Assembly: GCA_028388995.1 (NCBI GenBank)
Contig: JAOEQC010000016.1
Span: 1-37,590, forward strand
Length of the DNA stretch: 37,590 bases
Direction: 5' to 3'
From: Ascidiaceihabitans sp.
GTDB lineage: Bacteria > Pseudomonadota > Alphaproteobacteria > Rhodobacterales > Rhodobacteraceae
Position numbers and translations under genes: made by a program. Positions 12,242-37,590 of this stretch are shown here, piece after piece (the stretch's first letter is position 1; each line of letters begins with the position of its first letter). The notes under the pieces were generated by a model. It was given only the letters and a program-made list of their open reading frames with translations. It was not told where the DNA came from and did no database searches.

Positions 12242-12243
12242 TT

Positions 12244-13473
12244 TTAGCCCCCTTTGACCGAACCAGCCAAAAGGCCACGGATAAAGTAACGTTGCATGGA
12301 CAAGAAGACGAGAACTGGAACGATCATGGAAATAACCGCGGAGGCGTTCAATAAGTGAAGCTGATCCTTAAACGTTCCAAGTTGTTTTTGAAGTCGTATT
12401 GGGAACACTAAATCATCCGCATTGTTTGGGCCGATATACAAAGCAACGATAAGATCATTCCAAACCCACAGAAATTGGAAAATACTGAACGATGCAAGGG
12501 CAGGGACCGAAAGCGGAATAATGATCTTAGTGAAGATTTGTAGGTGGCTTGCGCCATCGATCCGAGCACTTTGCAGCAGTTCCTTAGGCAGGCCAACGAT
12601 GTAGTTGCGCAAAAGGTAAATCGCTAGCGGCAGACCGAATGCGGTGTGTGTAATCCATAGACTTGCAAAGGATTTTGATGCAACCTGACATGTGTCGGTC
12701 AGTTCGCAGTCCGTTAACCATTGGTTCAATGATGTTGCCCAAGAGGCGATGCCGCTGAAGCCTTGTAGAATAGGTAGAAATGCGAGTTGTGTTGGAACCA
12801 CCATCAACGACACAACAATCACGAACAGCCAGTCGCGCCCAGGAAACTGCATCCATGCAAATGCATAAGCAGCAAAGGCTGCAATCGTAATCGGAATGAT
12901 CGTTGCTGGTATGGTAACGATGAAAGACGAAATTAGCGCGTTTGGTACGTTTTTGTTATCAAACAGGACTTCAATGTATGCATCAGTGCCAAATACCGGA
13001 TCTTGATTGATGAAGACATCCAAGTTCTTTGGCTTTGGAGTGGCCGGTTGTTCAAAAGTCCAAGTAAAGTCTCCGCTTGTTTGGAAGACAAAGTCTCCGC
13101 CACGTACGTCCATCACTTCGCCGGCAGGAACCAGCTTGCGGACAAGTTTTGTCTTCTCTGGATTTTCAGGATCAGGGATGCGTGTTTTGATTAGGATGGA
13201 TTGGACATCGCCTGTAACGGGGAAACCAGAGGCCTCGTTGTTTAAACGTGCAAGGATGTTGCCAGCCATAGTTAGAATTTCGGTGTCATCGTCCTTGTCG
13301 TGGGTGCTAAAACGGTGACCCAGCTCAGTCGGCGTAAACGCAGTCCAAAAGCCTGCTGTTTTTGCTTCTGTTTCAGATCTTAGAGACGTTGAAACAAGCG
13401 CGACAAATGGGACAACCCAAATGACAACGATCAACGCCAAAACAGAATGACTTAATGTACGGGTGATCATCAT
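12244..13473 (-). CDS. aglG: Alpha-glucoside ABC transporter permease AglG
   Basis: A 409-residue inner-membrane permease of the MalG type. One membrane helix lies near residues 10-30. A long periplasmic insertion follows (about 31-170), which distinguishes AglG from ordinary MalG proteins. Five further helices come after that. The EAA loop that docks to the ATPase is visible as ELLQSARIDGASHLQIFTKIIIP. ATG ATG occurs at the start; AAGGAACACAG upstream fits either. It begins nine bases after aglF ends. Confidence 0.93.
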   Translation of the reverse strand: MMITRTLSHSVLALIVVIWVVPFVALVSTSLRSETEAKTAGFWTAFTPTELGHRFSTHDKDDDTEILTMAGNILARLNNEASGFPVTGDVQSILIKTRIPDPENPEKTKLVRKLVPAGEVMDVRGGDFVFQTSGDFTWTFEQPATPKPKNLDVFINQDPVFGTDAYIEVLFDNKNVPNALISSFIVTIPATIIPITIAAFAAYAFAWMQFPGRDWLFVIVVSLMVVPTQLAFLPILQGFSGIASWATSLNQWLTDCELTDTCQVASKSFASLWITHTAFGLPLAIYLLRNYIVGLPKELLQSARIDGASHLQIFTKIIIPLSVPALASFSIFQFLWVWNDLIVALYIGPNNADDLVFPIRLQKQLGTFKDQLHLLNASAVISMIVPVLVFLSMQRYFIRGLLAGSVKGG

Positions 13474-13482
13474 CTGTGTTCC

Positions 13483-14736
13483 TTAATGTCCAACTTCTTT
13501 TTGCTCGCGACGGATGCGCCAGCCATTGAAAATCATGTTTGGAACAACAGTCAGCATTAACATGACCGCGATTGCAGCAAACAAATTGTCTACATTGTCT
13601 CCGCCGATCGACCAGTTGTTCCGTGCGTTTTCCATCATTGTTGCCAGCAATAATTTGTCATCATCGTTTGCAGAAAGCGCATAGGGGATATCGAAAACCT
13701 TTAGCACTAAGATCACCAAAGTCGTCCAAACCACTAACACTGTTGAATAAATTTGGGGTAGCTTGATGCGGAAGAACATCTGGAAAGGATTTGCCCCATC
13801 AATAGTTGCGGCCTCTATCGTATCCTCCGGTACGCCGCGCAAAGCAGCGGAAAAGATCACCATCGCGAAACCGGTTTGAACCCAAACCAAGATCCACATG
13901 AGGAAGAAGTTCCCCCAGAATTTCAGGCTGTAAAGAGGTTCGTTATATTCCGCGGTATGACCCAACAACGATTTCATTAAGCCAATCTGGTAAGAGGGTG
14001 TAACGCCGTTGATTGTCTGCAGCGGCTCGATGCCGCCACCCGCAAAAATGTTACGCCAAATCACAGCTGCGCCAACGAAAGAAATGGCCAGTGGGATGAA
14101 GATGAAGGTTTTGGCGATAACGCCCCATCGAACGGAGTCAGCTAGAACAGCGATCAAAAGGCCAAAGATGATACATACAGTCGGTACCAAAATCAGCCAT
14201 AGTAAGCTGTTACGCATAGCCAGACGGAACTGCAGGTAGCCTAGCGCATCCCGGTCCCAAAGAAAGGCGTAATTACGTAGTGAAGGGGTGCCATCTGATT
14301 CCTGAAAAGACAGGCCAAGCGTCGAAAGTGCGGGGACCAAAAGAAATAGCAATAGCAATACAAGGGTAGGGCCCACGAATATCCAAGGCTGAATTGCTTC
14401 AATGATTCGAGATTGACGTCCGGCCGCATCGCGCTCACGGTGACGTGCCAAACTCATGTTGAGCCAGTTTGTAATACCGAAATACATGAATGAGATACCA
14501 ACAGCGATGATAACTGAGCGTATGGCAAACCCAATTTTAGAAAACCTTTCAATGGTGTCCATTTCTGGAAATGACCACTTAAAGGCGCTGTGCATCCACA
14601 ATCCGAAGTTTGCCATTGCATCATCCAATGGGCCCGACACAACGAAAGCAACGATTGCCGTGATCGGAAGCAAAAAAACAATTGTCAGAAAAATTGCGAG
14701 ACTGTTACTTGCTATTGCAAGTTTTAAAGAGCGCAT
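13483..14736 (-). CDS. aglF: Alpha-glucoside ABC transporter permease AglF
   Basis: A 417-residue inner-membrane permease of the MalF type. Hydrophobic segments at about 10-32, 70-90, 117-140 and four or five more after 170 form the channel. The EAA loop reads EDTIEAATIDGANPFQMFFRIKLP. The N-terminus resembles AglF rather than MalF in having an extra helix pair and a short cytoplasmic linker (ARHRERDAAGRQ). It follows aglE after an 89-base gap that contains a strong hairpin, so its expression may be set lower than that of the binding protein. Confidence 0.93.
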   Translation of the reverse strand: MRSLKLAIASNSLAIFLTIVFLLPITAIVAFVVSGPLDDAMANFGLWMHSAFKWSFPEMDTIERFSKIGFAIRSVIIAVGISFMYFGITNWLNMSLARHRERDAAGRQSRIIEAIQPWIFVGPTLVLLLLFLLVPALSTLGLSFQESDGTPSLRNYAFLWDRDALGYLQFRLAMRNSLLWLILVPTVCIIFGLLIAVLADSVRWGVIAKTFIFIPLAISFVGAAVIWRNIFAGGGIEPLQTINGVTPSYQIGLMKSLLGHTAEYNEPLYSLKFWGNFFLMWILVWVQTGFAMVIFSAALRGVPEDTIEAATIDGANPFQMFFRIKLPQIYSTVLVVWTTLVILVLKVFDIPYALSANDDDKLLLATMMENARNNWSIGGDNVDNLFAAIAVMLMLTVVPNMIFNGWRIRREQKEVGH

Positions 14737-23396: not shown

Positions 23397-23468
23397 TCAG
23401 GCGTTCTGCGCGTTGTTCTCAACAAAAGACAGCTCAATCATCGCTTCGCCAATACATGCAACAGACAT
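23397..23468 (-). pseudogene. Stump of 2-keto-3-deoxygluconate kinase (kdgK 5' end)
   Basis: Too short for the ORF track. The ATG overlaps the stop of the EamA gene and the reading is MSVACIGEAMIELSFVENN, AQNA, stop. This equals the first strand and helix of PfkB-type KDG kinases (family form: xIACIGEAMIELS; E. coli KdgK xIAVIGECMIELS). After 23 codons the similarity ends and the convergent idnD gene begins within 20 bases, so about 280 codons have been deleted. It shows that the operon once ended in a kinase that makes KDPG from 2-keto-3-deoxygluconate. Confidence 0.75.
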
Positions 23469-24349
23469 CATCTCTGTTCTCTTTTCCAGATTATGAGACC
23501 CGCGCACATGATAACTATTGCACCTATCATTGTCCAAAAGTCAGGGATGGTACCGAAGAATAAATAGCCCCAGATCGCAACATAGATCAGGAAGGAATAG
23601 GTAAAGGGCATCAGTTGGTTTGCCGTGCCGAAGCGATGCGCATTGGTTAGCAATTGATGACCAGCCCAGCCGAATATACCCAGCGCAATGAGGACAAGCA
23701 TGCCAAAGGAGGTCTCAGGCTGCACCCAAGTCCAAATAGCAAAAGGCAGCATTAACAACGTACCGACCAGCCCCATGTAAAACTGCATGGTTTCCACAGC
23801 AACGATGCCTGACAGTTTGCGAGTCATCATCGAATAAAACGCCAGTGCTGTGGCATTATAAACGATCATCAAAACGGCTGGATGAAACGTGGTGCCAAAA
23901 GGTCGGACCACGATCAACACGCCGATGAACCCCAAAAGGATAGCACCCCAGCGCCAAGGGCCAACGCGTTCTCCCAGCATATATATAGACAGGAAACAGA
24001 CGATCACAGGGCTCGAAAAAACAATGGCAGAAACGACTGTAAGGGGTAGGAATTGCAATGCGTAAAAGTTGGAGAGTGTCGCAGTAACCAGTAAAACTGC
24101 ACGGCTGACAACTGCCCACAGGTGATCGGTCTTAAACCGATCTGCTGTGATGCCACCGCGCGCAATCATGGCTATGGAAATACCAAAATGCCCCGCATAG
24201 CGCATAAACGCCAATTGAAACGCAGGGATGCCTGCCACCGCCAACCATTTCGCACCCGTGTCTACAAATGAAAATATGAACCACGCCACAAGCATCATTA
24301 GGATACCTAAGCGTGGCAAATCAGCGTTTGATTGTGCAATGACAGCCAT
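23468..24349 (-). CDS. EamA-type drug/metabolite transporter (DMT superfamily)
   Basis: A 293-residue inner-membrane protein with about ten hydrophobic helices in two EamA halves (roughly 12-145 and 155-288). Typical points are WFIFSFVDTGAKWLA at the start, LPLTVVSAIVFSSPVIVCFLS with its conserved Pro in the first half, and FGTANQLMPFTYSFLIYVAIWGYLFFG in the second. Members export or import small metabolites; substrate cannot be told. It lies two bases after the upstream dehydrogenase gene in the sugar-acid operon, so it may export an end product or an excess intermediate. Confidence 0.88.
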   Translation of the reverse strand: MAVIAQSNADLPRLGILMMLVAWFIFSFVDTGAKWLAVAGIPAFQLAFMRYAGHFGISIAMIARGGITADRFKTDHLWAVVSRAVLLVTATLSNFYALQFLPLTVVSAIVFSSPVIVCFLSIYMLGERVGPWRWGAILLGFIGVLIVVRPFGTTFHPAVLMIVYNATALAFYSMMTRKLSGIVAVETMQFYMGLVGTLLMLPFAIWTWVQPETSFGMLVLIALGIFGWAGHQLLTNAHRFGTANQLMPFTYSFLIYVAIWGYLFFGTIPDFWTMIGAIVIMCAGLIIWKREQR

Positions 24350-24351
24350 TT

Positions 24352-25242
24352 CTATTTTTTTGCGAAACGTTTGACGTAAAAGTCGACCATCTGGCCGACC
24401 ATATCCTCGCTTTGGCCGCTATCGCGCGCCTGCGTTAAGGCGGTAAGAGTGCCCTCGCTCATTAGGCTGTCAACACCTGCATCTTCGGCCATTTTTGCGT
24501 AATATCCGACGTCTTTTGCGGCGTTCTTGATGGCAAAGGCGATGGCTGAGGGGTCTTTATCAACGCCGTAAGTTTTCACAAAATCCATCATACCTGAATG
24601 CAATGGTCCAGCGGCCATCACTTTATACAGCTCTGCGCGATCGACGCCTGTAACATCGGCCATTGCAAAGGCTTCAGCCATCGCGTTCGCGACAGTCATC
24701 CCAAAGAAGTTGTTGATCAATTTGATTGTGTGACCAGATCCAATTTCGCCAAGGTGAAAGACGTTTTCACCCAAATCTTTCAAGGTGCCTTCAACTTTGT
24801 TAAACGCAACTTTGTCGCCAGCTGCCATAATATTCAGTAAGCCATCAACCGCGTGTTGTGGTGTTCGACCTAGTGGTGCGTCTAGATATGTGCCACCTGC
24901 TGCTGCAACTTCGTCGGCCAGGCTTCGGGTACTGCCCGGCAACGAGGTGCCAAAGTCGATGACTGTTGCACCGGCGCGTAGGCCTGCGATTACGCCATCC
25001 GTGCCGCGCATACGTGCTTCGACGTGCTCGGACGTGCCCATGCAAAGCATCACGACATCGCTCACTTGAGCAACGGCTTTTGCATCTTTTGCTTCAACAG
25101 CGCCACGTGCGATCGCCGCGTCCAGGTAGGTCCGGTCTTGGTTGCCGAGGATGGTTAATTTGTACCCAAGATCTTGAAGGCGGCCAACCATTGCGCCGCC
25201 CATGAGCCCAAGGCCTATGAATCCGATTTCTGGTTTTCTCAT
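24352..25242 (-). CDS. NAD(P)-dependent beta-hydroxyacid dehydrogenase with a GRT substrate motif
   Basis: A 296-residue oxidoreductase of the 3-hydroxyisobutyrate dehydrogenase family. GFIGLGLMGGAM (8-19) is the Rossmann loop and HTIKLINNFFG holds the catalytic Lys. The substrate loop reads DAPLGRTPQHAVDG where most members have DAPVSGG. A GRT loop also occurs in YihU, the 3-sulfolactaldehyde reductase of sulfoquinovose breakdown, as I remember it, so the substrate may carry a strongly charged group; other GRT members act on ordinary hydroxyacids. Gap to the next upstream gene is 28 bases. Confidence 0.88.
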   Translation of the reverse strand: MRKPEIGFIGLGLMGGAMVGRLQDLGYKLTILGNQDRTYLDAAIARGAVEAKDAKAVAQVSDVVMLCMGTSEHVEARMRGTDGVIAGLRAGATVIDFGTSLPGSTRSLADEVAAAGGTYLDAPLGRTPQHAVDGLLNIMAAGDKVAFNKVEGTLKDLGENVFHLGEIGSGHTIKLINNFFGMTVANAMAEAFAMADVTGVDRAELYKVMAAGPLHSGMMDFVKTYGVDKDPSAIAFAIKNAAKDVGYYAKMAEDAGVDSLMSEGTLTALTQARDSGQSEDMVGQMVDFYVKRFAKK

Positions 25243-25270: not shown

Positions 25271-26284
25271 TTAGCCCTGCGCTAGGCGTGTGGCAGGGGT
25301 ATTTGATTGTTGGGCCAATTGTGCCTCAATTTCTTGTGCCACAGTGAGTGTACGGGCTGCGTCAGCCACGTCAATCAAAGGGGGCGCGCCGTCCATAACG
25401 TTTATGAAATGGTCAAGTTGTGCATCAAGTGGTGTGCGGATGTTTTGCGCGACGTCTAAGGCAGTTCGTTTTGCAGATGTACCCCAATCAGAGCCATGCC
25501 AAAGGGTCATTGACGGAAAACTGACCGCCCCTTTTGTGCCCGTGATCCACATCATATCTTGGTGTGTGGTTCCAATGTTTGGGTTCTCACCTGTGCCCGC
25601 CTCAAACCCCCAAGGGGAAGGCGAGGTGTCTGCAAAGCTGATCGTACCAGTGGCACCATTTTCGAACATAAGGACGACGGCACCGCTTTCAATCCGGTCG
25701 GTCCCGCGCAAGGACGCACCCCGAAGGGCGGTTGTTTTCACAATTTCACCGACAACAAATCGCAGGGTATCAATGTCATGTACAAGATTTATCATCACAG
25801 GGCTGCCGTCTGCAGCGCGCCAGTTGCCTTCAAAATAGGCATCAGGTTTGCGCATTGCCCAGATAATTGAGGCAGTGACCACGGTGCCGATTGTTCCGTT
25901 GGCGATCAGGGATTTGAGTTGCTGAACGGGCGCGTGATAACGTCGGTGGTGAGCGACCAATGATGTGGTGCCTGTCATCTTCAATGTATTCTCGAGCCGC
26001 TTGGCGTCTCTGATGGTGCCTGTGACGGGCTTTTCAATCAATACATGCCAACCACGTTTCGCGGCCTGAATAGCATGGTCGGCATGCAGATGCGTGGGTG
26101 TGGCAATAATCGCACCGTCAATGTTGTCAGGAGCCTCTGCCATATTGGGAAATCGTGTATGCTCCCCGGCAATCGTCATGTCAGGATCGGCCAAACCGAC
26201 AAGTTCGCATCTGGGATGTGCGACCACGGCTTGGATATGGCGTATCCCAATCAAACCACCACCAACAACAAGAATGCGTTTCAC
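25271..26284 (-). CDS. Gfo/Idh/MocA family oxidoreductase
   Basis: A 337-residue NAD(P)-dependent sugar or sugar-acid dehydrogenase. VVGGGLIGIRHIQAV is the Rossmann loop, and ADHAIQAAKRGWHVLIEKPVTG is the family hallmark with the EKP catalytic Lys. HDIDTLRFVVGE carries the D-x-x-x-(H/D) catalytic region of the C-terminal domain. The ORF track starts at an ATG seven codons earlier; GTG 26284 overlaps the stop of the uxaA-like gene by four bases (GTGA) and gives the normal N-terminus VKRILVVGGG. Either start is possible. Substrate unknown; probably oxidises a hexonate or lactone intermediate. Confidence 0.88.
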   Translation of the reverse strand: MKRILVVGGGLIGIRHIQAVVAHPRCELVGLADPDMTIAGEHTRFPNMAEAPDNIDGAIIATPTHLHADHAIQAAKRGWHVLIEKPVTGTIRDAKRLENTLKMTGTTSLVAHHRRYHAPVQQLKSLIANGTIGTVVTASIIWAMRKPDAYFEGNWRAADGSPVMINLVHDIDTLRFVVGEIVKTTALRGASLRGTDRIESGAVVLMFENGATGTISFADTSPSPWGFEAGTGENPNIGTTHQDMMWITGTKGAVSFPSMTLWHGSDWGTSAKRTALDVAQNIRTPLDAQLDHFINVMDGAPPLIDVADAARTLTVAQEIEAQLAQQSNTPATRLAQG

Positions 26285-27783
26285 ATCACAGCCCCGATTT
26301 GCCATGGGACGAATTCGTAGTCGCCCAATCCTTGTGCTTCTGACTTTGTCACTTCACCTGATGCTACGCGTAAAAACATCTTGTAGATTTCGCGGCCTTT
26401 TTCTTCGATGCTTATGCCTTTTGACAGGACCTCGCCTGCGTCAATGTCCATGTCTTCGCTCATGCGCATCGCCATTTCAGTGTTGGTTGCAATCTTGATT
26501 GTTGGCGCGGGTTTAGAGCCGAAAGCAGAGCCGCGCCCGGTGGTGAAGCACACTAAGTTGCAGCCGCCTGCGATTTGGCCGGTGACGGATGCGGGATCAT
26601 AACCTGGAGAGTCCATAAACGTGAACCCGCGTGTTGTGACGGGTTCTGCATATTTGTAGACGCCAGTAAGGGGGGACGTACCGCCTTTGGCGGCTGCGCC
26701 GAGTGATTTTTCAAGGATCGTGGTAAGGCCACCCTGCTTGTTTCCAGGAGAGGGGTTGTTGTCCATCGAGCCCTTGTTTCGGGTCGTATAATCCTCCCAC
26801 CACTTGATGAGACTGATAAGCTTGTCGCCCGTCGCTTGGTCCACCGCGCGGCGGGTCAGAAGGTGTTCGGCACCGTAAATTTCGGGTGTTTCTGCCAGCA
26901 CGCCTGTGGCCCCTTGGGCTGTGAGCAAATCGCATGCATAGCCAAGTGCAGGGTTCGCTGTGACGCCGGACCAAGCATCAGAGCCACCGCACTGCAGCGC
27001 GACCATCAATTCAGAGGCTGGGCATTTGGTTCGGGTGGCCTTGTCCGCGATGGGCAGCATGGCGGTGACCTTGGCGATACCCATCTCGATCGTGCGGCGC
27101 AAACCTGCAACTTTCTGGATATTCATAGTTTGAAAAGTGGGGCTGTGCTTCAGGCCATATGCCTCAAGGAGCCAGTCGATTTGGTTCATCTCACAGCCAA
27201 GTCCGAGCATTAGCACGCCAGCATGGTTCGGATGTTTCGCGTAGCCCCACATAACACGTTGTAGTGCTTCAAAGCCATCGCCGTTGTCGGCCATGCCGCA
27301 GCCTGTGCCATGCACGAAGGCTGCCACGCCGTCGACGTTGGGAAACTGGCTAAGGATGTCTGGTGTGAAATAGTCCGCGATCATACGCGCGGCGGTTGCC
27401 GAGCAGTTTACTGAGGTTACAATTGCGATATAGTTGCGGGTGCCGACACGCCCGTTTTCACGGCGAAACCCCATGAATGTATCTTGTGTCGTTGCCAGAA
27501 CCACAGGGCGCAAATCAGTTGAGAACTCATAGGCCATATCCGTATTGCGGAACTCAACATTTTGCGTGTGGACGTGATCCCCTGCCTTGATATCGGTTGC
27601 TGCATAGCCAATAAGTTGCGCGTATTTGCGCACTGGGTCACCTTTGGCAATCGCGGCAGTCGCGATTTTGTGGCCAGAGGGGATAAGCGCCGTTGTTTGC
27701 ACCTCTTCAATTACGACGCCAACTTCCAGCGCACGCGTGGCTGTGACAACATTATCTGCGCGGTCCAAACGTACGAAGTTCAA
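26281..27783 (-). CDS. UxaA-family sugar-acid dehydratase (altronate dehydratase / galactarate dehydratase type)
   Basis: A 500-residue dehydratase with both parts of the family: an N-terminal SAF domain (about 1-95, SGHKIATAAIAKGD) and the large catalytic domain with GRVGTRNYIAIVTSVNCSATAA, HGTGCGMA, GLGCEMNQI, ALQCGGSDAWSGVTANPALG and GGCNLVCFTTGRGSAFG. Conserved cysteines in those blocks hold the Fe centre. E. coli UxaA makes 2-keto-3-deoxygluconate from D-altronate; related GarD acts on galactarate. The start is TTG at 27783 after GGAAGGA, and no nearer ATG exists. Its product would be a substrate of KdgK, whose gene is reduced to a stump at the operon end. Confidence 0.92.
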   Translation of the reverse strand: MNFVRLDRADNVVTATRALEVGVVIEEVQTTALIPSGHKIATAAIAKGDPVRKYAQLIGYAATDIKAGDHVHTQNVEFRNTDMAYEFSTDLRPVVLATTQDTFMGFRRENGRVGTRNYIAIVTSVNCSATAARMIADYFTPDILSQFPNVDGVAAFVHGTGCGMADNGDGFEALQRVMWGYAKHPNHAGVLMLGLGCEMNQIDWLLEAYGLKHSPTFQTMNIQKVAGLRRTIEMGIAKVTAMLPIADKATRTKCPASELMVALQCGGSDAWSGVTANPALGYACDLLTAQGATGVLAETPEIYGAEHLLTRRAVDQATGDKLISLIKWWEDYTTRNKGSMDNNPSPGNKQGGLTTILEKSLGAAAKGGTSPLTGVYKYAEPVTTRGFTFMDSPGYDPASVTGQIAGGCNLVCFTTGRGSAFGSKPAPTIKIATNTEMAMRMSEDMDIDAGEVLSKGISIEEKGREIYKMFLRVASGEVTKSEAQGLGDYEFVPWQIGAVM

Positions 27784-27810: not shown

Positions 27811-28761
27811 TCATGCGCAGTAGGGCGCATCTGATGACCAGCGGTGAATGTCAGTATGAGTCGCATTGGCCAAACGTGATCGGGTGTCTTCCCACATGTT
27901 TTTCCAGACTTGCCAATCATGTAGTTCGGTTTGTGGATGCGCGCGCGAACGAGCGATGAATTCCGGGAAATGGCCGCGCCCTGTGGGCTGGCCGGTTTTG
28001 TTGAAACGTATGTCAAACGACCAGCGAAACCTTTCAGAGTTATTGTTGAGAGAGGCGTGGGGCGTCAGGGGGTGAAACAGCACAGCACTACCAGCTGAGA
28101 CGGGCAGAAGGATTGCACTCATTTCATTGACATAACCATCGGCAATGCCGGTTTGGGTGCGCGGGCAATGGGGCAGGATTGTTTGATCGGGCGTCTTGGG
28201 CTGGACCTGCAAGCACCCGTTGTCGATGGTGGCCTCTGTTATAGCGATCCAGCAAGTAACCATGTCGGTTTCATCAGCGTCTTGCAGCGCTACAGCGCGG
28301 TCCTGATGCCAGTCAGTCGCGGCAATATGAGGCCGCACTTCGTCGGAAGCGAGCACACCGACGGGTGGTTTTAATCGAACGTGCTGGATTGGATTGCTTG
28401 TCAGCTCTGGCCCAATGAGCTGTTCTATAACATCCAAAAGCTGTTCGGCCCTGAGCATGTCAAAGACTGCAGGGCCGAAGTGGAAAGGTGTATCTGCCAA
28501 AATCTGGTTACCTGGGAGTGATATGTCGAGTGGCTGAAAATAGTCACAGCCCTCCTCATAAGCATGTTGCAGTTTGCCCCAAAAATCCAACTGATCGGGC
28601 TGCGTTTTCACCAACCCCTTTGCAAACCAATCGGCGTAAAGCGCGTTCAGCAGTTGCGCGTACTCCATTCGAACACGGCCCAAGAGACCTTCAGGAATAA
28701 GGTCGGGTACAACCACGTATCCTTGTGTGGCGAAGTGCGTAATTTGGTCTTGGGTAAGCAT
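27811..28761 (-). CDS. Phytanoyl-CoA dioxygenase (PhyH) family Fe(II)/2-oxoglutarate oxygenase
   Basis: A 316-residue member of the PhyH family, which uses Fe(II), O2 and 2-oxoglutarate to hydroxylate small molecules. The facial triad is His152 and Asp154 (DWHQD) with distal His235 (LTPHASLNN); Arg246 in RFRWSF is the likely 2-oxoglutarate anchor. The N-terminus FATQGYVVVPDLIPEGLL is typical. It sits between dctM (9 bases) and the uxaA-like gene (27 bases), so it belongs to the sugar-acid operon. The substrate is unknown; an oxygenase here suggests that the imported compound carries a group such as an O-methyl, N-alkyl or sulfonate, or that it acts on a pathway intermediate. Confidence 0.88.
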   Translation of the reverse strand: MLTQDQITHFATQGYVVVPDLIPEGLLGRVRMEYAQLLNALYADWFAKGLVKTQPDQLDFWGKLQHAYEEGCDYFQPLDISLPGNQILADTPFHFGPAVFDMLRAEQLLDVIEQLIGPELTSNPIQHVRLKPPVGVLASDEVRPHIAATDWHQDRAVALQDADETDMVTCWIAITEATIDNGCLQVQPKTPDQTILPHCPRTQTGIADGYVNEMSAILLPVSAGSAVLFHPLTPHASLNNNSERFRWSFDIRFNKTGQPTGRGHFPEFIARSRAHPQTELHDWQVWKNMWEDTRSRLANATHTDIHRWSSDAPYCA

Positions 28762-28770
28762 GGCATATCT

Positions 28771-30393
28771 CTAGAGTAAGAGTGCAATTATGTTTGGCCA
28801 GATGAGCAATACGGACAAAGCCACAAGCTGAATGCCGATAAAGGGCAGGAAGCCTTTAAATATGTCTGTGAGGCTGATGTGTGGCGGAGCTACGGATTTC
28901 AGATAGAACGCCGCTGGACCAAAGGGTGGGGACAGAAAACTGACCTGCATGTTCATGCAGAACACCACACCAAACCAGATCGCCACGTGTGACGGTTCGA
29001 GCTGACCTATAAAGCCAATTTCGTCGATGGGTAGGCGCAGAACGATGGGCAAGAAGACGGGGATGATCAGCAATACAATGCCGACCCAGTCCATGAATGC
29101 GCCCATAAAGAGAAGAATGACCATCATAGTTAAAATGACCATCATGGTTGGCAAATCCTTACCCACGATCAGATCCGCCACGTATTGGGGCCCACCAGCG
29201 ATGGTGTAGGCCCCCGCGAGGGATGCGGCACCAATGGTGACCCAAATGATTGTGCCAGTAGAACGCAACGTGCGCATCAGGCTTTCCCAGATCAACTCAA
29301 ACGAGCCTTCACCACGCAGAATTGCGATGACCAGAACTGCGGCAGCCCCCATGCCTGCGGCTTCTGTAATGCCGGTAATACCACCATAAATGGAACCCAT
29401 GACAACGCCGATGACGACCATTGGAGCAACAAGGCCTTTTCCCATGTCCCAACCAAGTTTAGAGCGGTCTTTGCCAAAGACAAAGTAGATTAGGGTCAAC
29501 GCGCCGATCGTAATCCCTGCAAGCCACGGCATGTGGGCTGCGGTGCCAAGACGCGCAGGATCGCCGTCACTGGCAGCATTTGAACCGGAAAGTTCAAAGA
29601 ACATCGCACGCAAGAACAGGAAGGTGCAGAAACCTGCAATAACGATGGACATAAATGCTGCAAACAGCAGACGCTTTTCTTTGCGTGGTGGATCATTGGG
29701 TTCGGGTTCGGGTAGGGGCGCATCTTCGGGGCGCAAGGTCGTGCGGACAATGATGTAAAGAATGAACATCGAAGCGAGCATGAAGCCTGGAATGAAGGAC
29801 GCCGTAAACAGTGCCTTGATCGACGTTTCCGTAATCAGGCCATAGATGATCAAAACGATTGATGGTGGGATCATCGTCCCCAACGAACCGGACGCACAGA
29901 TCACACCAATAGCGAGGTTTTGATTGTACCCAAGCCGCAGCATCTGGGGCAGGGCAATTAGGCCCAAAAGGACAACTTCACCACCGATAATGCCCGACAT
30001 TGCTGCCATTATCACAGCCATGATTGAAGTAACAATTGCGATGCCACCGCGCGTGCGCGATAGCCATACATTAAGCGATGAATACATGTCTTTGGCAATG
30101 CCAGATCGTTCTAGCAGGGACGCCATGAAGATAAACAGTGGTATGGATATAAGGACATAGTCTGTTAAAAGCCCGTATATTTTCTGTGCGAGAATATAAA
30201 GCGGCCCAGTGCCTGGCCTGCTGGTCAACATACCGTCACCGAAAGTGAATGGGTTCAATATCAAAGCGGGCTCAAACTTCATGACCAGCACTAAAACTGC
30301 GAGGGACGCAGAGGCGAAGCCAAGCGGCATACCGATAGCTAGCAGTGCAATAAGTGCCAGCATCAACACCAGTGAAATCGTTCCAATATCCAT
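28771..30393 (-). CDS. dctM: TRAP transporter large membrane subunit DctM
   Basis: A 540-residue sodium-driven permease that moves substrate delivered by DctP. More than a dozen hydrophobic helices, with the family runs LISIPLFIFMASLLERSGIA, GIIGGEVVLLGLIALP, GSLGTMIPPSIVLIIYG and SPPFGPAAFYLKS. It is longer than common DctM proteins (about 430) because of a middle insertion (about 215-320) with a charged linker RPEDAPLPEPEPNDPPRKEK. That form goes with large DctQ partners. TAATG overlap with dctQ shows coupling. Confidence 0.95.
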   Translation of the reverse strand: MDIGTISLVLMLALIALLAIGMPLGFASASLAVLVLVMKFEPALILNPFTFGDGMLTSRPGTGPLYILAQKIYGLLTDYVLISIPLFIFMASLLERSGIAKDMYSSLNVWLSRTRGGIAIVTSIMAVIMAAMSGIIGGEVVLLGLIALPQMLRLGYNQNLAIGVICASGSLGTMIPPSIVLIIYGLITETSIKALFTASFIPGFMLASMFILYIIVRTTLRPEDAPLPEPEPNDPPRKEKRLLFAAFMSIVIAGFCTFLFLRAMFFELSGSNAASDGDPARLGTAAHMPWLAGITIGALTLIYFVFGKDRSKLGWDMGKGLVAPMVVIGVVMGSIYGGITGITEAAGMGAAAVLVIAILRGEGSFELIWESLMRTLRSTGTIIWVTIGAASLAGAYTIAGGPQYVADLIVGKDLPTMMVILTMMVILLFMGAFMDWVGIVLLIIPVFLPIVLRLPIDEIGFIGQLEPSHVAIWFGVVFCMNMQVSFLSPPFGPAAFYLKSVAPPHISLTDIFKGFLPFIGIQLVALSVLLIWPNIIALLL

Positions 30394-31235
30394 TAGTCTT
30401 GTCCTACTGCGCGTTTGAGCATTTCAATTTCGTCCTGATCCGGCTCATCTGTGTGGATTTCAGGAGTTTTGTTCCAATCTGCGATCAGATTTAGCAACGC
30501 TTGAGTTGCGACCAGCGTGATCATGATCAACACCATTGGTTGCAACGTTGCTGGGATCGGCGGATTAAAGGCAGAGCCGTAGAGCTCCCACTTGTACAGC
30601 TTGTTCAAGAACACCTGCTTGTAGCTGCCGTAGACCAGAAAGAACGCGAACGTGACGATTAGCAGGCACGAGACCGAGTCAAACACCCGTTGAACCCAGC
30701 GTGGCATAATGTCGTAGATCAGGAAAATTCGGATGTGGCAGCGTTGTTGCATTGCGTAAAAACCAGAGATCAGGAATACGAAACTCGCGAACCACAACGT
30801 CATCTCGTTCGCCCACTCAGTCGGTTGTTCCATGATGTAGCGCATGAACACTTCATAAAGCATCACAATTGTCATGGTCGCGATCATCATCATGGTTACA
30901 CGGCCCATAAACAGGGCAATATGGTCAATCTTGCTGGCACCTTCGTATTCCATCCCCGCGGGACGCACCGAACGGGCCCCAAAGAAAACTAAGATTGGAG
31001 TCGCGATTAGCGCTATAATGTCAATAATATCAATGTGACCCCCAAAGATGCCGTTCATATTTGGGGTCACATCTGCGCGGATATAGATAGCCTCAACTTG
31101 CGCGCGCATGCTTTCGGATGTGTAGGGAATCCAGTCGAGCATGAAAGCTGGCAAATGCCAGATGAGCCAGGCAGCCGTGCCCACAAACGCCAGTGGTATC
31201 AGCCACTCTACGATGCCGCCTGATCTTTTCTGCAT
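30393..31235 (-). CDS. dctQ: TRAP transporter small membrane subunit DctQ (large variant)
   Basis: A 280-residue partner of DctM. Common DctQ proteins have about 160-200 residues and four helices. Here an extra N-terminal part (about 1-105) with two helices (12-32 and 68-88) precedes the standard four-helix core, whose mark is QQPTEWANEMTLWFASFVFLISGFYAMQQRCHIRI (here EQPTEWANE). The C-terminal tail is acidic (TDEPDQDEIE). Starts 16 bases after the enolase-superfamily gene and overlaps dctM by one base. Confidence 0.93.
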   Translation of the reverse strand: MQKRSGGIVEWLIPLAFVGTAAWLIWHLPAFMLDWIPYTSESMRAQVEAIYIRADVTPNMNGIFGGHIDIIDIIALIATPILVFFGARSVRPAGMEYEGASKIDHIALFMGRVTMMMIATMTIVMLYEVFMRYIMEQPTEWANEMTLWFASFVFLISGFYAMQQRCHIRIFLIYDIMPRWVQRVFDSVSCLLIVTFAFFLVYGSYKQVFLNKLYKWELYGSAFNPPIPATLQPMVLIMITLVATQALLNLIADWNKTPEIHTDEPDQDEIEMLKRAVGQD

Positions 31236-31251: not shown

Positions 31252-32421
31252 TTACGCTTTGATTTCGAAGTGTTTTATAAAGTCCATGTCCGGTTCAACG
31301 CTGATGCCTGGACCGGTCGGAATAACCACGCGACCATTGTTTGCTTTGACCTGCCCCTGAATATCCAAAGGTTCTGCTAGCAGCTCATCACGAAATTTGT
31401 TGTCGGTGGTATCGAATTCTAACATTGGCTCCCACGGGTGCAGACCACCGGGCAAGGGGGGCATCGCGCCCAGTAATTGCAGGTTAGTGGCAACCGCAAT
31501 AGCACTGCCCCAGACGTGGTTAATCACGGGTGTGAAATGCGCGTGGCACAACGCTAGAACACGCAGATACTCTGAAACACCACCAAGCGCACAAACTTCG
31601 GGTTGCGCGATGTCGAGGCCGCGATTTTCCAAAATATTACGCCAACCCCAGCGGCTAAATTCGGCTTCCCCGCCCGAGATGTTGATCTTGAGACCTGCGC
31701 GCAGTTCGCGGTAGCCGTCGAGATCCTCAGGTGCAATTGGTTCTTCGAACCAGTAGGCGTCTAACTCTTCTAACGCGCGGCCCACATAAAAAGCGTCCGA
31801 TGTGGTGTAGCAGTGGTTGGCATCGACCATGAATTTAAAGTCATCGCCGACACCACGGCGAACAGCCTCACAGAGCTTCACATCAGGTTTGGGCCCAAAT
31901 CCAGTCTTCATCTTGGCGGCAGTAAAGCCCATGCCTTTGATTGCAGCCGCTTCATCTTCAAACCGCTTGGCTAAATCATCGATCGGTTCATCGCGCAGCA
32001 TCATACCGTAGCCGTAGCATGGTACGTCGACACGGTGCGCACCGCCAATCAGCTTATGCAGCGGGAGGCCCGTAACTTTTCCCGCGATGTCCCATAGTGC
32101 GATGTCTACGCCAGAGAGCGACTGCATCGGCATGCCTTTTTGCCCATGATCTCGCAGAAGGTTATATACCTTGTGCCAAATCACGTCGCGGTCCATCGGG
32201 TCCATCCCAAGAACCATGGGCTGAATAACTTTTTCAACGATGCCTTTGTTGGCTATCGCTATGTTTCCCGGACCAAAACATTCACCCCAACCCGTCACAC
32301 CTTCGTCGGTTTGCACCTCGACCAAATGCGCGGAACGTTTGGCGTAATACTGCTGCGAATACCCCAAAATTTCAGGCATATCATACTGAAGCACATGACT
32401 GATAATGCGGGTGATTTTCAT
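31252..32421 (-). CDS. Enolase-superfamily sugar-acid enzyme, D-galactarolactone cycloisomerase-like
   Basis: A 389-residue protein of the mandelate racemase subgroup, which abstracts a proton next to a carboxylate. The catalytic pair Lys170-x-Lys172 (AAKMKTGFG), metal ligands Asp200 (VDANH), Glu226 (WFEEP) and Glu252 (GGEAE), and His302 (NHVWG) are intact. The partner of that His, normally Asp in QPD, is Glu275 (AQPEVCALGG). WGECFGPGN, LLRDHGQKG and MLEFDTTDNKFRD resemble the Agrobacterium galactarolactone cycloisomerase Gci. It may open a sugar lactone or dehydrate an aldonate. It lies second in the operon, right after the TRAP binding protein, which suggests it handles the imported substrate early. 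Confidence 0.9.
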   Translation of the reverse strand: MKITRIISHVLQYDMPEILGYSQQYYAKRSAHLVEVQTDEGVTGWGECFGPGNIAIANKGIVEKVIQPMVLGMDPMDRDVIWHKVYNLLRDHGQKGMPMQSLSGVDIALWDIAGKVTGLPLHKLIGGAHRVDVPCYGYGMMLRDEPIDDLAKRFEDEAAAIKGMGFTAAKMKTGFGPKPDVKLCEAVRRGVGDDFKFMVDANHCYTTSDAFYVGRALEELDAYWFEEPIAPEDLDGYRELRAGLKINISGGEAEFSRWGWRNILENRGLDIAQPEVCALGGVSEYLRVLALCHAHFTPVINHVWGSAIAVATNLQLLGAMPPLPGGLHPWEPMLEFDTTDNKFRDELLAEPLDIQGQVKANNGRVVIPTGPGISVEPDMDFIKHFEIKA

Positions 32422-32502: not shown

Positions 32503-33525
32503 TTACTTCATCGCGCCCATGTCTTTTAGGAATGCGACGTGACTTGCTAGCAGCGCTTTGGCTTCTGGTGTTGTCGCAAACTCGGTCCAACCTTTTTGAA
32601 CCGCAGAACGGTACTTGGCCAGATCTTCTGGTGTCCACTCATAAAGGTTGATACCTTTGGCGCGAAGGGTTTTCGCGGTCTGTTCGTTTTGGACTTCGTT
32701 GATGGTCGCATTGTTCAATGCAAGGCTGTCCATCGCGACTTCCATGATCTTACGGTGGTGTGCTGGCATGCTGTCCCAGACTGTCTTGTTGCACGCAAGG
32801 TGGTCAGCGGGCATTGAGTGGAAGCCCGGATAGTTCGTGTGCTCGGCAATGTCATATAGACCAAGGCCTACGTTGTTGGTGAGGTTTGCCGCGTCTGCAC
32901 CATCGATGATACCAGTTTCAAGTGCGGTAAAGATCTCGTTGAAGTCCATCACGATTGGCGATGCACCCATGGCTGCAAATACCTTTGTTGCAAGGCCAGG
33001 GGGTGAGCGGAATTTCCAATCTTTAAAGTCATCGGCATTGCGTATCGGGCTTGTAGAGGCTAGCGATTCTGGACCAGGGATCCACCAACCAACAAACTCC
33101 ATATCATATGGGTTATACAGATCATTCAAAGCTGCGCGACCATTGCCGTGCAGCAACCATGCCATCTGTTGGTATGGGTTTTGGTAGCCACCCATTAAGT
33201 CGCCCGCAAATTGGAACGCTGGGTTCTTACCAGTTTGGTATGCGCCACCTGTCATATCGCAATCAAGAATACCTGTTGCAGCGGCATCAAACGTTTCAAC
33301 CGATTTAACTACGGATGCGGAATAAAACATCTCAACTGCGATTTCGCCATTGGACATAGTTTGAATGTCATCAACGAATTTCGCAGCCATCTTGCCTGAC
33401 AGTTGCTCGGGCGAGAAGTGTGTCTGAATGCGCAGTTTTGTTGTAGCGTGGCCGTCTGCCATCGCGGTTGTTGCAGCCAGTGCGGCAGTGACGGCCAATG
33501 TGGCCGCTGTTTTCAAAAGTTTCAT
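32503..33525 (-). CDS. dctP: TRAP transporter periplasmic solute-binding protein DctP
   Basis: A 340-residue periplasmic binding protein. The ORF track begins 13 codons early; ATG 33525 follows GGAGG by five bases and gives a clean signal peptide (MKLLKTAATLAVTAALAATTAMA). The conserved core WKFRSPPGLATKVFAAMGASPIVMDFNEIF, followed by TALETGIIDGAD, contains the Arg that clamps the substrate carboxylate, so the ligand is an organic or sugar acid. First gene of the long sugar-acid operon, divergent from the GntR regulator. Confidence 0.95.
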   Translation of the reverse strand: MKLLKTAATLAVTAALAATTAMADGHATTKLRIQTHFSPEQLSGKMAAKFVDDIQTMSNGEIAVEMFYSASVVKSVETFDAAATGILDCDMTGGAYQTGKNPAFQFAGDLMGGYQNPYQQMAWLLHGNGRAALNDLYNPYDMEFVGWWIPGPESLASTSPIRNADDFKDWKFRSPPGLATKVFAAMGASPIVMDFNEIFTALETGIIDGADAANLTNNVGLGLYDIAEHTNYPGFHSMPADHLACNKTVWDSMPAHHRKIMEVAMDSLALNNATINEVQNEQTAKTLRAKGINLYEWTPEDLAKYRSAVQKGWTEFATTPEAKALLASHVAFLKDMGAMK

Positions 33526-33641
33526 GTAGTCCTCCCAGACATTATGCGTTGCGGTACCGGGCATAAGATTACTCCCTTTTCTGTACGCTGGTTAAACGTT
33601 AGGACAGGAATTCGCTAACGACAAGAATAAAGTGAAATTAG

Positions 33642-33720: not shown

Positions 33721-34371
33721 ATGTTTAATGAAAAAGACATCTACCTAAACCTTCAAGATCGACTTGTAACTGCGGGATTTGAGCACGGAGCAAAGCTGCG
33801 TGCCGAAGTCTTAAGCCGTGAATATAATTGTTCTGCCAGCACTATCCGTGAGGCGCTTTTTCGGCTGTCTACGCTTGGCTTGGTCAAATTCCAGGAACAA
33901 CGGGGGTTTCGGGTCCCTGAAAGGTCGCCGGAAAAAGTTATGGAACTTACCCACATGCGGGTGCTTTTAGAGGGGGAGGGCACAGTGCTTTCGATCCATA
34001 AGGGTGGCGTCGCATGGGAGGCGCGTTTGACTGCTGCGCACCACCAATTGAGCCATATTGAAAAACGCATTCATACCACCGACGACCCTACCGATTTGGT
34101 TCCGATCTGGTTCAATGCAGAACGGGAATTTCACCAAACTTTGATATCAGCATGCGGCTCGGAAACACTAAAAGAGTTACATGCGAGGGTTTATGCGCAG
34201 TTCCGTCAGCAACTGATGGTAGCAGATCGCCAGTTCGATTTCATTTCTGATAACATTCAGCATCACGCAGAAATTCTTGCCGCAGCTGTGTCTGGTGATA
34301 AAGGTTTGACGCGCCAAAATATCCATGATCATCTGGCCCGTCACCTGACCGGAAACACGTTGCAGGTCTAG
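33721..34371 (+). CDS. GntR-family transcriptional regulator, FCD subfamily
   Basis: A 216-residue DNA-binding regulator. Residues 1-70 form the winged helix: LRAEVLSREYNCSASTIREALFRLSTLGLV and the wing FQEQRGFRV. Residues 75-212 form the all-helical FCD ligand domain, with metal/ligand residues in FNAEREFHQTLISACGS, IQHHAEIL and HDHLARHL. FCD regulators commonly sense the sugar acid or keto-acid of the adjacent pathway. AAAAAGG lies about ten bases before ATG. Its stop codon overlaps that of the convergent DenD-like gene (CTAG). It probably represses the dctP operon and perhaps the right-hand genes. Confidence 0.93.
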   Translation: MFNEKDIYLNLQDRLVTAGFEHGAKLRAEVLSREYNCSASTIREALFRLSTLGLVKFQEQRGFRVPERSPEKVMELTHMRVLLEGEGTVLSIHKGGVAWEARLTAAHHQLSHIEKRIHTTDDPTDLVPIWFNAEREFHQTLISACGSETLKELHARVYAQFRQQLMVADRQFDFISDNIQHHAEILAAAVSGDKGLTRQNIHDHLARHLTGNTLQV

Positions 34372-35333
34372 GCTTTTAGATCGTCGTGGATGTAGACTTT
34401 TATTATTTCGTCAAAACTGCTTTCAGCCACAAAACCCAATGCGACAGCTTGTTTGGGGTTGAAATCACGTGGCCATCCGTCGACAATTTGCATGATTGTC
34501 GGGTCAAGTTTTAGCTTGATCAGATCAACAGCATCCTGGCCAGCGGCGTTGCGCAGCGCCTCGATTTGCTCTGCTACTGTGCAGCTTACCCCTGGTAGGT
34601 TCAGCGCACGCCGTCCGTTCAGCAGATCGGTATCAAGCGTTGCAGCATGTGTTAAAAACTGTGCTGCCACGCGTGGGCTGGCGTGCCAATGGCGTACGGT
34701 ATCTGCAACGGGCAAGACTGCTACAATTCCGTTCAGTGGTTCACGGATAATTCCTGAAAAGAACGAAGATGCAGCAGCGTTGGCTTTGCCCGGGCGCACG
34801 CAGATCGTGGGTAGGCGTAAGGAAATCCCGTCGATAAACCCTTTGCGACTAAAATCCGTAATCATCAATTCACAAGCGGCCTTTTGCGCGCCGTAGCTGG
34901 TCAGCGGTGCAGACAGGAATGAATCGTCGATCTTGTCGGGGTAGGGACCGCCATAGACAGCAATGGATGAGGTGAACACCACACGTGGTCGGTACGTGCC
35001 TTCAGATGCGTCATGCTCTGTCTTGATCGCATTAAGCAAATGCCACATCGCCATCATGTTGACGTCCCAGCCTAGATCAAACTTGGTCTCGGCCTCTCCT
35101 GATACAATGGCAGCAAGGTGGAAAATCACATCAGGCCTGCTGGCTGCCAGTGTTTGTGCCATGGTGGCGTCTGCGATATTGCCCATTACTGTTTTTGTGA
35201 TCACGCCGTTTTTGGGAAACGCGCGGTCAAACAGTGTCAGTTCAACGCCGTCAAAAATGTTATGCTCAGTGATGCGTCTGGCCAGTTTCTGCCCGATCAT
35301 ACCGCCGCCGCCAAGGATTAGGATTTTGGTCAT
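34368..35333 (-). CDS. D-erythronate dehydrogenase-like NAD-dependent epimerase/dehydratase family protein (DenD-like)
   Basis: A 321-residue extended SDR. ILGGGGMIGQKLAR binds NAD; FTSSIAVYGG and SYGAQKAACE give the Ser and the YxxxK. HLAAIVSGEAETKFDLGWDVN and RLPTICVRPGKANAAASSFFSGIIREPLNG are runs I associate with DenD, which oxidises D-erythronate to 2-keto-D-erythronate in the four-carbon acid pathway. It overlaps the preceding dehydrogenase by four bases (ATGA), so both are made together. The kinase, isomerase and aldolase of that pathway (OtnK, OtnI, OtnC) are not in the window. Confidence 0.85.
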   Translation of the reverse strand: MTKILILGGGGMIGQKLARRITEHNIFDGVELTLFDRAFPKNGVITKTVMGNIADATMAQTLAASRPDVIFHLAAIVSGEAETKFDLGWDVNMMAMWHLLNAIKTEHDASEGTYRPRVVFTSSIAVYGGPYPDKIDDSFLSAPLTSYGAQKAACELMITDFSRKGFIDGISLRLPTICVRPGKANAAASSFFSGIIREPLNGIVAVLPVADTVRHWHASPRVAAQFLTHAATLDTDLLNGRRALNLPGVSCTVAEQIEALRNAAGQDAVDLIKLKLDPTIMQIVDGWPRDFNPKQAVALGFVAESSFDEIIKVYIHDDLKA

Positions 35334-36214
35334 GTCAGATCATTCCGTTTTTTAAGTTCCAGATACAGGCCAGAGTGATCCAAATCAGCGCCACCCATTT
35401 CTTCACAGAAATGCGCAAAGCGGTTGCGAACCTCTTGGGTTGTGGGGAGGGCAAGGCCCAAACTTGCGGCTTCTGCTAATGTGTTATCAAGGTCTTTCAG
35501 TTGGAATTTTGAAAGTCCTCCGGGGGTGAAATTCCCCTCTGACATCCGTTCGCCATGTTGTTGTAAAACCACGCTGTCTGCAAATCCTCCTTTGAGGGCC
35601 GCGCGAAGGGCCACAGGGTCCGCCCCGCCTTTTTCTGCAAGTAACGTAGCCTCAGCTACGGCGGAGATTGTCACGGCAACAATTGCTTGGTTCGCCAATT
35701 TACATAGCATACCAGACCCGGACGGACCGACATGAACGGGTCGGCCCATCGCCTCAAAGACGAAACGCATGTCCTCAACGATTGCCGCTTCGCCGCCTAC
35801 CATTATAGCAAGGTTACCTGCCTCAGCGCCTTTGGTTCCACCAGAAACGGGCGCATCCAAGTGAGTTACACCTAGGCCAGCCAAAAGGGTGGAATGTGCC
35901 CGCGCATGCTCGGGCTTGGCACTCGACATATCAACCCAGACCATGCCAGCAGTTAGTGCACGCTGCACATCTGGATCTGACAGCAGTTCACCTGTGGCAA
36001 AGCCATCTGAAAGCATTGAGATAACCACCTGCGCACTTGCTATCGACCTGGCAACCGTATCGGCAGTCTTAGCACCTTCCTTAACCAATGGTGCCGCACG
36101 GTGCGCACGGCGATTCCAGACTGTCAGATCATGCCCTGCTGCCATTAGATTGCGGGACATGGGTAGCCCCATTAGCCCAGTACCGATGAGGGTGATTTTG
36201 CGGGTTTGGTTCAT
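35330..36214 (-). CDS. NAD(P)-dependent beta-hydroxyacid dehydrogenase (GarR/LtnD-like)
   Basis: A 294-residue member of the 3-hydroxyisobutyrate dehydrogenase family with the classical motifs: LIGTGLMGLPMSRNL (Rossmann), DAPVSGGTKGAEAGNLAIMVGG (substrate loop) and GSGMLCKLANQAIVAV (catalytic Lys). Candidates are tartronate semialdehyde reductase or L-threonate dehydrogenase; the DenD-like neighbour favours a four-carbon acid. AAGGAC precedes the ATG. First gene of a two-gene minus-strand operon, divergent from the SDR gene. Confidence 0.9.
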   Translation of the reverse strand: MNQTRKITLIGTGLMGLPMSRNLMAAGHDLTVWNRRAHRAAPLVKEGAKTADTVARSIASAQVVISMLSDGFATGELLSDPDVQRALTAGMVWVDMSSAKPEHARAHSTLLAGLGVTHLDAPVSGGTKGAEAGNLAIMVGGEAAIVEDMRFVFEAMGRPVHVGPSGSGMLCKLANQAIVAVTISAVAEATLLAEKGGADPVALRAALKGGFADSVVLQQHGERMSEGNFTPGGLSKFQLKDLDNTLAEAASLGLALPTTQEVRNRFAHFCEEMGGADLDHSGLYLELKKRNDLT

Positions 36215-36337: not shown

Positions 36338-36365
36338 AAGATCATTCATAATTCGAGATGATCTT
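36338..36365 (+). promoter_or_regulatory. 28-bp dyad upstream of the DHRS6-like SDR gene
   Basis: AAGATCAT, 12 bases, ATGATCTT: an 8-bp perfect inverted repeat about 60 bases before the SDR start. Its centre ATAATTCGAGAT is nearly the same as ATAATTTCGAGAT in the dctP-gntR dyad (one base inserted), so the same regulator may bind both. Confidence 0.45.
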
Positions 36366-36423
36366 GCACCCTTTTGGGTACGTAATAGCAGAGTCATATT
36401 GTAAGAATCAGGGCTTAATTTAT

Positions 36424-37185
36424 ATGATAGAACAAAGACTTAGTGGTAAATCTGTATTGGTCACAGCGGCTGGACAAGGTATTGGCCGTGCCAGTGCTAT
36501 AGCGATGGCGCGCGCAGGCGCGCAGGTGTTCGCCACAGACGTAAATATGGAAGTTTTATCCACGATTCGAAGTGAGAATCTCGAAAATATTGAAATTTTC
36601 GAACTTAATGTGCGTGATGATGAAAGTGTGAAAGCAGGCGTTGCGCGGGCCGCACCAGACGTGTTGTTCAACTGCGCAGGTTTTGTCCATCACGGTGCAA
36701 TTTTGGAGACAACAGATGATGATTTTGATTTCGCCATCGACCTGAATGTCCGCTCTATGATCCGCACAATTCGTGCTGCATTGCCGGGCATGTTGGAGCG
36801 TGGAGCCGGCTCGATTATCAACATGTCATCTGCCGCAGGCTCCATTATTGGCGCACCCAATCGCTTTATTTATGGGACAACAAAAGCTGCTGTTGTAGGT
36901 CTTACCAAATCGGTGGCTGTCGACTACATTACCAAAGGCATCCGCTGCAACTGCATCTGTCCTGGTACGGTCGAGTCTCCCAGCTGGCATGACAGGGTTA
37001 CAGCCCTTGGTGAGCAATTGGGCAGCTATGACAGAGCGATGGAACAATTTGTTGCGCGCCAGCCCATGGGTCGTGTAGCGACCGCTGCAGAGATTGCAGC
37101 ACTTGTCGTTTATCTTGCCAGTGACGAAAGTGGTTTTACTACAGGGCACGCACATATCATTGATGGAGGTTGGTCAGGCCAATGA
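36424..37185 (+). CDS. Short-chain dehydrogenase, DHRS6 / 2-keto-3-deoxy-L-fuconate dehydrogenase-like
   Basis: A 253-residue SDR. The ORF track starts 22 codons earlier, but that extension is not family-like; ATG 36424 gives the normal start [21 protein letters not shown]. Ser, Tyr and Lys of the active site lie in [44 protein letters not shown] and [20 protein letters not shown] closely follow human DHRS6 (BDH2) and its bacterial relatives, which oxidise 2-keto-3-deoxy-L-fuconate-type acids. The stop overlaps the next start (ATGA). With the IlvD/Edd dehydratase it would form dehydrate-then-oxidise steps. Confidence 0.88.
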
Positions 37186-37590
37186 CAAAACGCATAAAGA
37201 TAGAGGATTTACGGTCGCGCAAATGGTTCATGAACCCTGACAATCTGGAAATGACAGCGTTGTATCTGGAGCGCTATCTGAATTACGGCCTGACGCGCGA
37301 AGAGCTACAGTCGGGCAAGCCGATCATTGGCATCGCCCAAACCGGCAGTGACTTATCACCTTGTAACCGCCACCACATTGAGCTGACCAAGCGCGTGCGG
37401 GACGGCATCATAGCGGCGGGTGGTACCTGTATCGAAATCCCAGTCCATCCCATTCAGGAAACTGGTAAGCGGCCCACTGCGTCGCTGGATCGAAACCTTG
37501 CGTATTTGTCTTTGGTCGAGACGCTATTTGGCTATCCGCTGGATGGTGTCGTTTTGAATATCGGTTGCGATAAAACCACACCGGCGCTGT
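37182..37590 (+). CDS. IlvD/Edd-family sugar-acid dehydratase, 5' part (runs off the window)
   Basis: 136 codons of a dehydratase that continues beyond the right edge; not on the ORF track because it lacks a stop. [20 protein letters not shown] and [13 protein letters not shown] carry the first two cluster cysteines of the family, which needs an Fe-S cluster and Mg2+ to remove water from dihydroxy acids. The start [26 protein letters not shown] is that of aldonate dehydratases (arabinonate/xylonate/gluconate type) rather than IlvD. Overlap with the SDR stop by four bases shows coupling. Full length would be about 580-600 residues. Confidence 0.92.

Follow-up and report, generated by a model that had tools for sequence, protein, structure and literature searches.

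An Fe(II)/2-oxoglutarate (2OG) oxygenase gene set within a sugar-acid operon raises the question of what such an enzyme does there; among the sugar-acid routes known to us, none contains an oxygenase. The gene was found in a 37,590-nucleotide stretch of DNA from Ascidiaceihabitans sp. (Rhodobacteraceae; assembly GCA_028388995.1, contig JAOEQC010000016.1, positions 1–37,590), which was analyzed as a whole and is hereafter called the window.

Gene Content and Organization of the Window

The oxygenase gene (phyH) belongs to a run of nine genes on the − strand with gaps of no more than 81 bp, in the order dctP, MR/MLE, dctQ, dctM, phyH, dehydratase, Gfo/Idh/MocA, HIBADH-like, and EamA. It starts 9 bp after dctM and ends 27 bp before the dehydratase gene, in agreement with a sequence-only reading of the window, which had placed it between TRAP and dehydratase genes. 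The genes of the run, followed by those on its dctP side, are as follows:

32503–33564, −: TRAP solute-binding protein DctP (PDB relatives: 4pe3, keto-acid/lactate binders)
31252–32421, −: MR/MLE (enolase superfamily) enzyme (closest in the PDB: 4ggb/4hpn, 5olc)
30393–31235, −: TRAP small membrane subunit DctQ
28771–30393, −: TRAP large membrane subunit DctM
27811–28761, −: predicted PhyH-family Fe(II)/2OG oxygenase (Pfam match, metal ligands, 2OG arginine, fold model)
26281–27783, −: GarD/UxaA-type acid-sugar dehydratase (SAF and GD_AH domains)
25271–26305, −: Gfo/Idh/MocA oxidoreductase
24352–25242, −: beta-hydroxyacid dehydrogenase (HIBADH/GarR-like)
23468–24349, −: EamA-family permease, the final gene of the run
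33721–34371, +: GntR/FCD regulator, divergent from dctP
34368–35333, −: D-erythronate dehydrogenase DenD (NF043036; 354 bits, above the cut-off of 325)
35330–36214, −: HIBADH-like dehydrogenase, overlapping denD by 4 bp
36358–37185, +: SDR, possible 2-keto-3-deoxy-aldonate 4-dehydrogenase
37182–37590, +: IlvD/Edd-type aldonate dehydratase, 5′ part, cut by the window end

The PDB entries 4ggb/4hpn represent the Agrobacterium galactarolactone cycloisomerase. The SDR is accompanied in relatives by a FAH-type 2,4-diketo-acid hydrolase. Deducing the substrate from the TRAP binding protein was dropped, as the search output lists no ligand for its nearest PDB relative (4pe3). Elsewhere in the window, genes for a GH1 glycosidase, an alpha-amylase-family enzyme, and an ABC transporter form a cluster for glucoside uptake (8310–14736) that has no bearing on the oxygenase; near the contig end lies a phage-integrase-family gene (318–1328).

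Identity and Predicted Structure of the Oxygenase

The phyH open reading frame is intact, begins with ATG, and encodes 316 a.a. Judged by family, ligands, and modeled fold, the product is a putative PhyH-family Fe(II)/2OG enzyme. It matches the Pfam PhyH family (PF05721) across residues 12–246 at 75.5 bits (cut-off 22), and in 22/22 orthologues of 52–70% identity neither the HxD...H triad (H152, D154, and H235) nor the 2OG arginine (R246) varies, which upholds the earlier description of a PhyH-family enzyme with a complete metal triad. Across these orthologues, 91 of the 316 positions are invariant. The metal/2OG motif pattern was present in 80/81 oxygenase copies (motif check), and a C-terminal P-x-C-A tail, encoded at nt. 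27814–27825 in the window, in 81/81 (script check). This tail, to our knowledge not a published family mark, is also kept in distant relatives from Pantoea (39%) and locus L070 (34%).

An AlphaFold2 model of the oxygenase (pLDDT 82, pTM 0.84), uncertain at loops 156–158 and 199–208 and at the P-x-C-A tail, gave PDB fold matches to ThoJ, human PHYH, PHYHD1, SnoN, SnoK, SyrB2, and EvdO2. The matches to 2a1x, 6zyl, and 3obz, each at probability 1.00, point to a double-stranded beta-helix fold, with modest TM-scores of 0.47–0.61 by query length. Human phytanoyl-CoA 2-hydroxylase PHYH (2a1x) was the top PDB sequence match and a near-best fold match; it differs, however, in its acyl-CoA substrate, its 17% identity in the fold alignment, and its lack of the operon context. 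Ectoine hydroxylase was rejected as the identity of the enzyme, given no match to EctD (TIGR02408) at E ≤ 1e-5.

Distribution and Conserved Neighborhood

Among 298 genomes of the Rhodobacteraceae, 50 contain a match at E ≤ 1e-20, comprising the window's own genome, 48 matches at 52–70% identity, and one 35% relative (G195). Internal stops were absent from all 50, and this number of intact matches puts the gene far beyond chance. Class-wide and phylum-wide samples yielded matches in 3/385 and 6/399 genomes, respectively (both counts include the window's genome), and together only two oxygenase genomes outside the Rhodobacteraceae. A scan of named genomes left 80 loci, most of them again from marine Rhodobacteraceae and a small number from Rhizobiales-like and UBA4588 MAGs. 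The oxygenase is mainly a Rhodobacteraceae feature. One MAG (L154) carries two copies, one of which lies near genes that by eye resemble those for 2-keto-3-deoxygalactonate kinase/aldolase.

Neighboring genes, called with a composition-trained gene caller, were counted for the 60 loci of more than 19 kb by presence in the locus, not adjacency. The dctPQM genes were found in 59/60 and the dehydratase in 54/60, so that the neighborhood on which the sequence-only reading depended is indeed conserved. The HIBADH-like gene (55/60), EamA (54/60), SDR (53/60), and IlvD (46/60) were also frequent, and FAH occurred in 29/60, its protein scoring under the cut-off for 2,4-didehydro-3-deoxy-L-rhamnonate hydrolase (372 of 500). 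Across distant lineages, the position of phyH is near constant, either in the dctM-dehydratase interval or beside a second dehydratase gene (MR22).

The Oxygenase as an Optional Component

Operons without phyH were sampled from the best dehydratase matches downward, and the dehydratase orthologue occurred without the oxygenase in 37/70 sampled loci. On the dehydratase tree, phyH presence required 23 parsimony changes, and well-supported branches make at least 8 of these unavoidable; the total is no fewer than with shuffled labels. DctP proteins from operons without phyH are up to 96% identical to those from operons with it. TRAP genes were commoner in operons with phyH (29/33 versus 22/37, p = 0.014, kinship not corrected). 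The distribution fits an oxygenase that is an optional add-on to a shared TRAP importer and dehydratase hub and would broaden the set of acids that this hub receives, because it is patchy in otherwise intact operons while near-identical DctP stays.

The nearest dehydratase on the tree (L189) likewise belongs to an operon without phyH. Its dctM-dehydratase interval (L189:2993-7383) holds a PGDH_C-domain gene, an OiaK-like DUF1537 kinase, an OiaX-like RuBisCO-like protein, and DenD; the OiaK and OiaX relatives score under their cut-offs and DenD above.

Relation to Tetronate, Altronate, and Galactarate Pathways

Bacterial tetronate catabolism proceeds through LtnD/DenD, OtnI, OtnK, and OtnC, with DUF1537 kinases. 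The window resembles it in the DenD that passes its cut-off. In one relative, G102 (L066/L208), the resemblance extends to a tight run of ltnD-otnK-otnC-otnI directly before phyH-uxaA, with gene ends overlapping or nearly so; LtnD, OtnK, and OtnC are above their cut-offs and OtnI is below. Through this run, the hub is linked to tetronate catabolism. The described tetronate pathways, as far as we know, have neither an oxygenase nor a UxaA-type dehydratase.

In the window's genome, OtnK is present away from the operon. OtnK above its cut-off was found in 33/40 genomes with phyH versus 21/36 without (p = 0.025, no kinship correction). It also occurs within ~25 kb of operons lacking phyH (G039, G057, and G292), so that it was not taken as an oxygenase-specific partner; the tetronate link belongs to the hub and not to the oxygenase as such.

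The altronate and galactarate (UxaA/GarD) pathways share with the window a dehydratase of the same three domains as the neighbor of phyH; they differ in that the window's dehydratase falls under the galactarate dehydratase equivalog cut-off (TIGR03248; 366 of 731 bits). We know of no described altronate or galactarate pathway that contains an oxygenase.

Proposed Role of the Oxygenase

With family, metal ligands, operon conservation, and optional status established, we infer the substrate class, the reaction, and the place in the pathway. On balance, we consider the oxygenase to be probably an optional, peripheral Fe(II)/2OG enzyme of a TRAP-linked sugar-acid hub, which would convert an unusable modified acid to a usable one. 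In this scheme, the TRAP system would import sugar acids, and the GarD/UxaA-, MR/MLE-, and IlvD-type dehydratases would turn them into 2-keto-3-deoxy acids, to be either phosphorylated (KdgK-type kinase) or oxidized and hydrolyzed (SDR and FAH), while tetronates would be routed via DenD/LtnD and OtnK. The oxygenase itself would use O2 and 2-oxoglutarate to form an Fe(IV)=O species, with succinate and CO2 as products, and the Fe(IV)=O would abstract hydrogen from the modified carbon.

The reaction that we prefer, tentatively and by analogy, is the O-demethylation of an O-methyl sugar acid, whose hydroxylated methyl group would depart as formaldehyde. Such a reaction is possible for a PhyH-family enzyme, since FJS and PHYHD1 of this family remove 2′-O-methyl groups from ribose with release of formaldehyde (PMC12709175). 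These enzymes resemble the oxygenase in their PhyH fold (3obz and 2opw are among its best structural matches), HxD...H triad, and 2OG dependence (predicted here), but act in nucleoside catabolism rather than from a TRAP sugar-acid operon, and sequence similarity is weak; close kinship to PHYHD1 was not found (E 9e-5, core only).

No formaldehyde gene adjoins phyH, and FghA was found elsewhere in 22/22 genomes checked (above its cut-off in 21). Formaldehyde could thus be handled by the carriers, and the presence of FghA does not discriminate between reactions. Adjacency was dropped as a test of demethylation because FghA lies away from the operon in every genome checked, which makes it uninformative. 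As for the earlier proposal that the oxygenase strips a substituent such as a methyl or alkyl group from the imported acid, a preparatory step feeding an existing route agrees with patchy phyH in intact operons, while the removal of a methyl or alkyl group drew nothing from genes adjacent to phyH, none of which is for formaldehyde. The further suggestion of a new route was too strong, as the oxygenase seems to add an optional way into a hub that already exists.

A somewhat unlikely alternative is that the enzyme hydroxylates a deoxy or methyl-branched acid (e.g., 2- or 3-deoxytetronate) directly; no methyl would then be removed, and the product would be a tetronate or aldonate on which DenD, LtnD, or the dehydratases could act. 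C-H hydroxylation is the usual reaction of PhyH enzymes (e.g., PHYH and EctD), and the contiguity of phyH with the tetronate genes in G102, denD in the window, and the missing formaldehyde neighbor all speak for it, whereas OtnK near operons without phyH counts against it, since the tetronate link is then not peculiar to the oxygenase. That the enzyme merely shares the operon's regulation while acting on an unrelated compound (a compatible solute, sulfonate, phosphonate, or secondary metabolite) is improbable: its weak matches to methylphosphonate hydroxylase and chlorinating enzymes would suit this, as would the 39.6% Pantoea relative. That relative, which also weighs against our main reading, is not part of a sugar-acid operon; a B12 radical-SAM enzyme and an O-methyltransferase adjoin it in what looks like a natural-product cluster. 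The near-constant position of phyH across distant lineages argues against an unrelated substrate, and the recurring neighbors included no recognized genes for sulfonates, phosphonates, or ectoine. A sulfonate pathway of the SqoD kind was rejected for want of recognizable sulfite or sulfonate genes that recur. It is very improbable that the enzyme modifies the sugar acid without hydroxylating it, e.g., by epimerization or desaturation in the manner of SnoN. The folds nearest to the model do include the SnoN epimerase and SnoK, but the sequence comparison (E ≤ 0.01) gave no match to SnoN, and the operon's dehydrogenases are already able to invert centers.

Returning to the oxygenase as a peripheral enzyme of the hub, it may, as one plausible though tentative generalization, mark a hitherto undescribed way in which marine Rhodobacteraceae catabolize sugar acids: one or two oxygenases of the PhyH type would demethylate or hydroxylate imported aldonates or tetronates and so open a pool of modified acids to the TRAP-fed dehydratase hub.

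Novelty and Implications

Oxygen-dependent demethylation of porphyran 6-O-methylgalactose is performed in marine bacteria by a P450 system (PMC10033563), which is unlike the oxygenase in its enzyme type, neutral sugar substrate, and operons. In the open-licence literature searched, no description was found of a PhyH arrangement with altronate, threonate, TRAP, or sugar acid. Real and conserved, the putative sugar-acid oxygenase comes from a known family but stands in an apparently undescribed context. Its conservation with TRAP genes in ~1/6 of the Rhodobacteraceae genomes sampled suggests that marine bacteria have modified sugar acids as a genuine nutrient, and the carriers include culturable strains of Ruegeria, Roseobacter, and Litoreibacter, type strains among them, that could reveal the substrate. 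Were it a true O-demethylase, PHYHD1-type chemistry would extend from nucleosides to free sugar acids.

A Second PhyH-Family Gene and Distant Relatives

A second, different PhyH-family gene (PHYH2; e.g., L051:7136-8062, − strand) was present in 29/80 named loci, often in the same operon, and in 26/60 long oxygenase loci. Against the EctD model (TIGR02408), PHYH2 of relatives scored below the cut-off (86.7 of 336.5). It occurred in 14/33 operons with phyH versus 6/37 without (p = 0.019); the association was set aside, as independent pairs on the tree failed to reach significance. PHYH2 was also found without the first PhyH gene (L193 and L195). Two adjacent PhyH genes on the Pantoea plasmid pML.8a3 form a comparable pair, and on a Pantoea dispersa plasmid (L158:14068-18395) consecutive genes encode two PhyH proteins, a B12 radical-SAM enzyme, and an O-methyltransferase, an arrangement that resembles a natural-product cluster.
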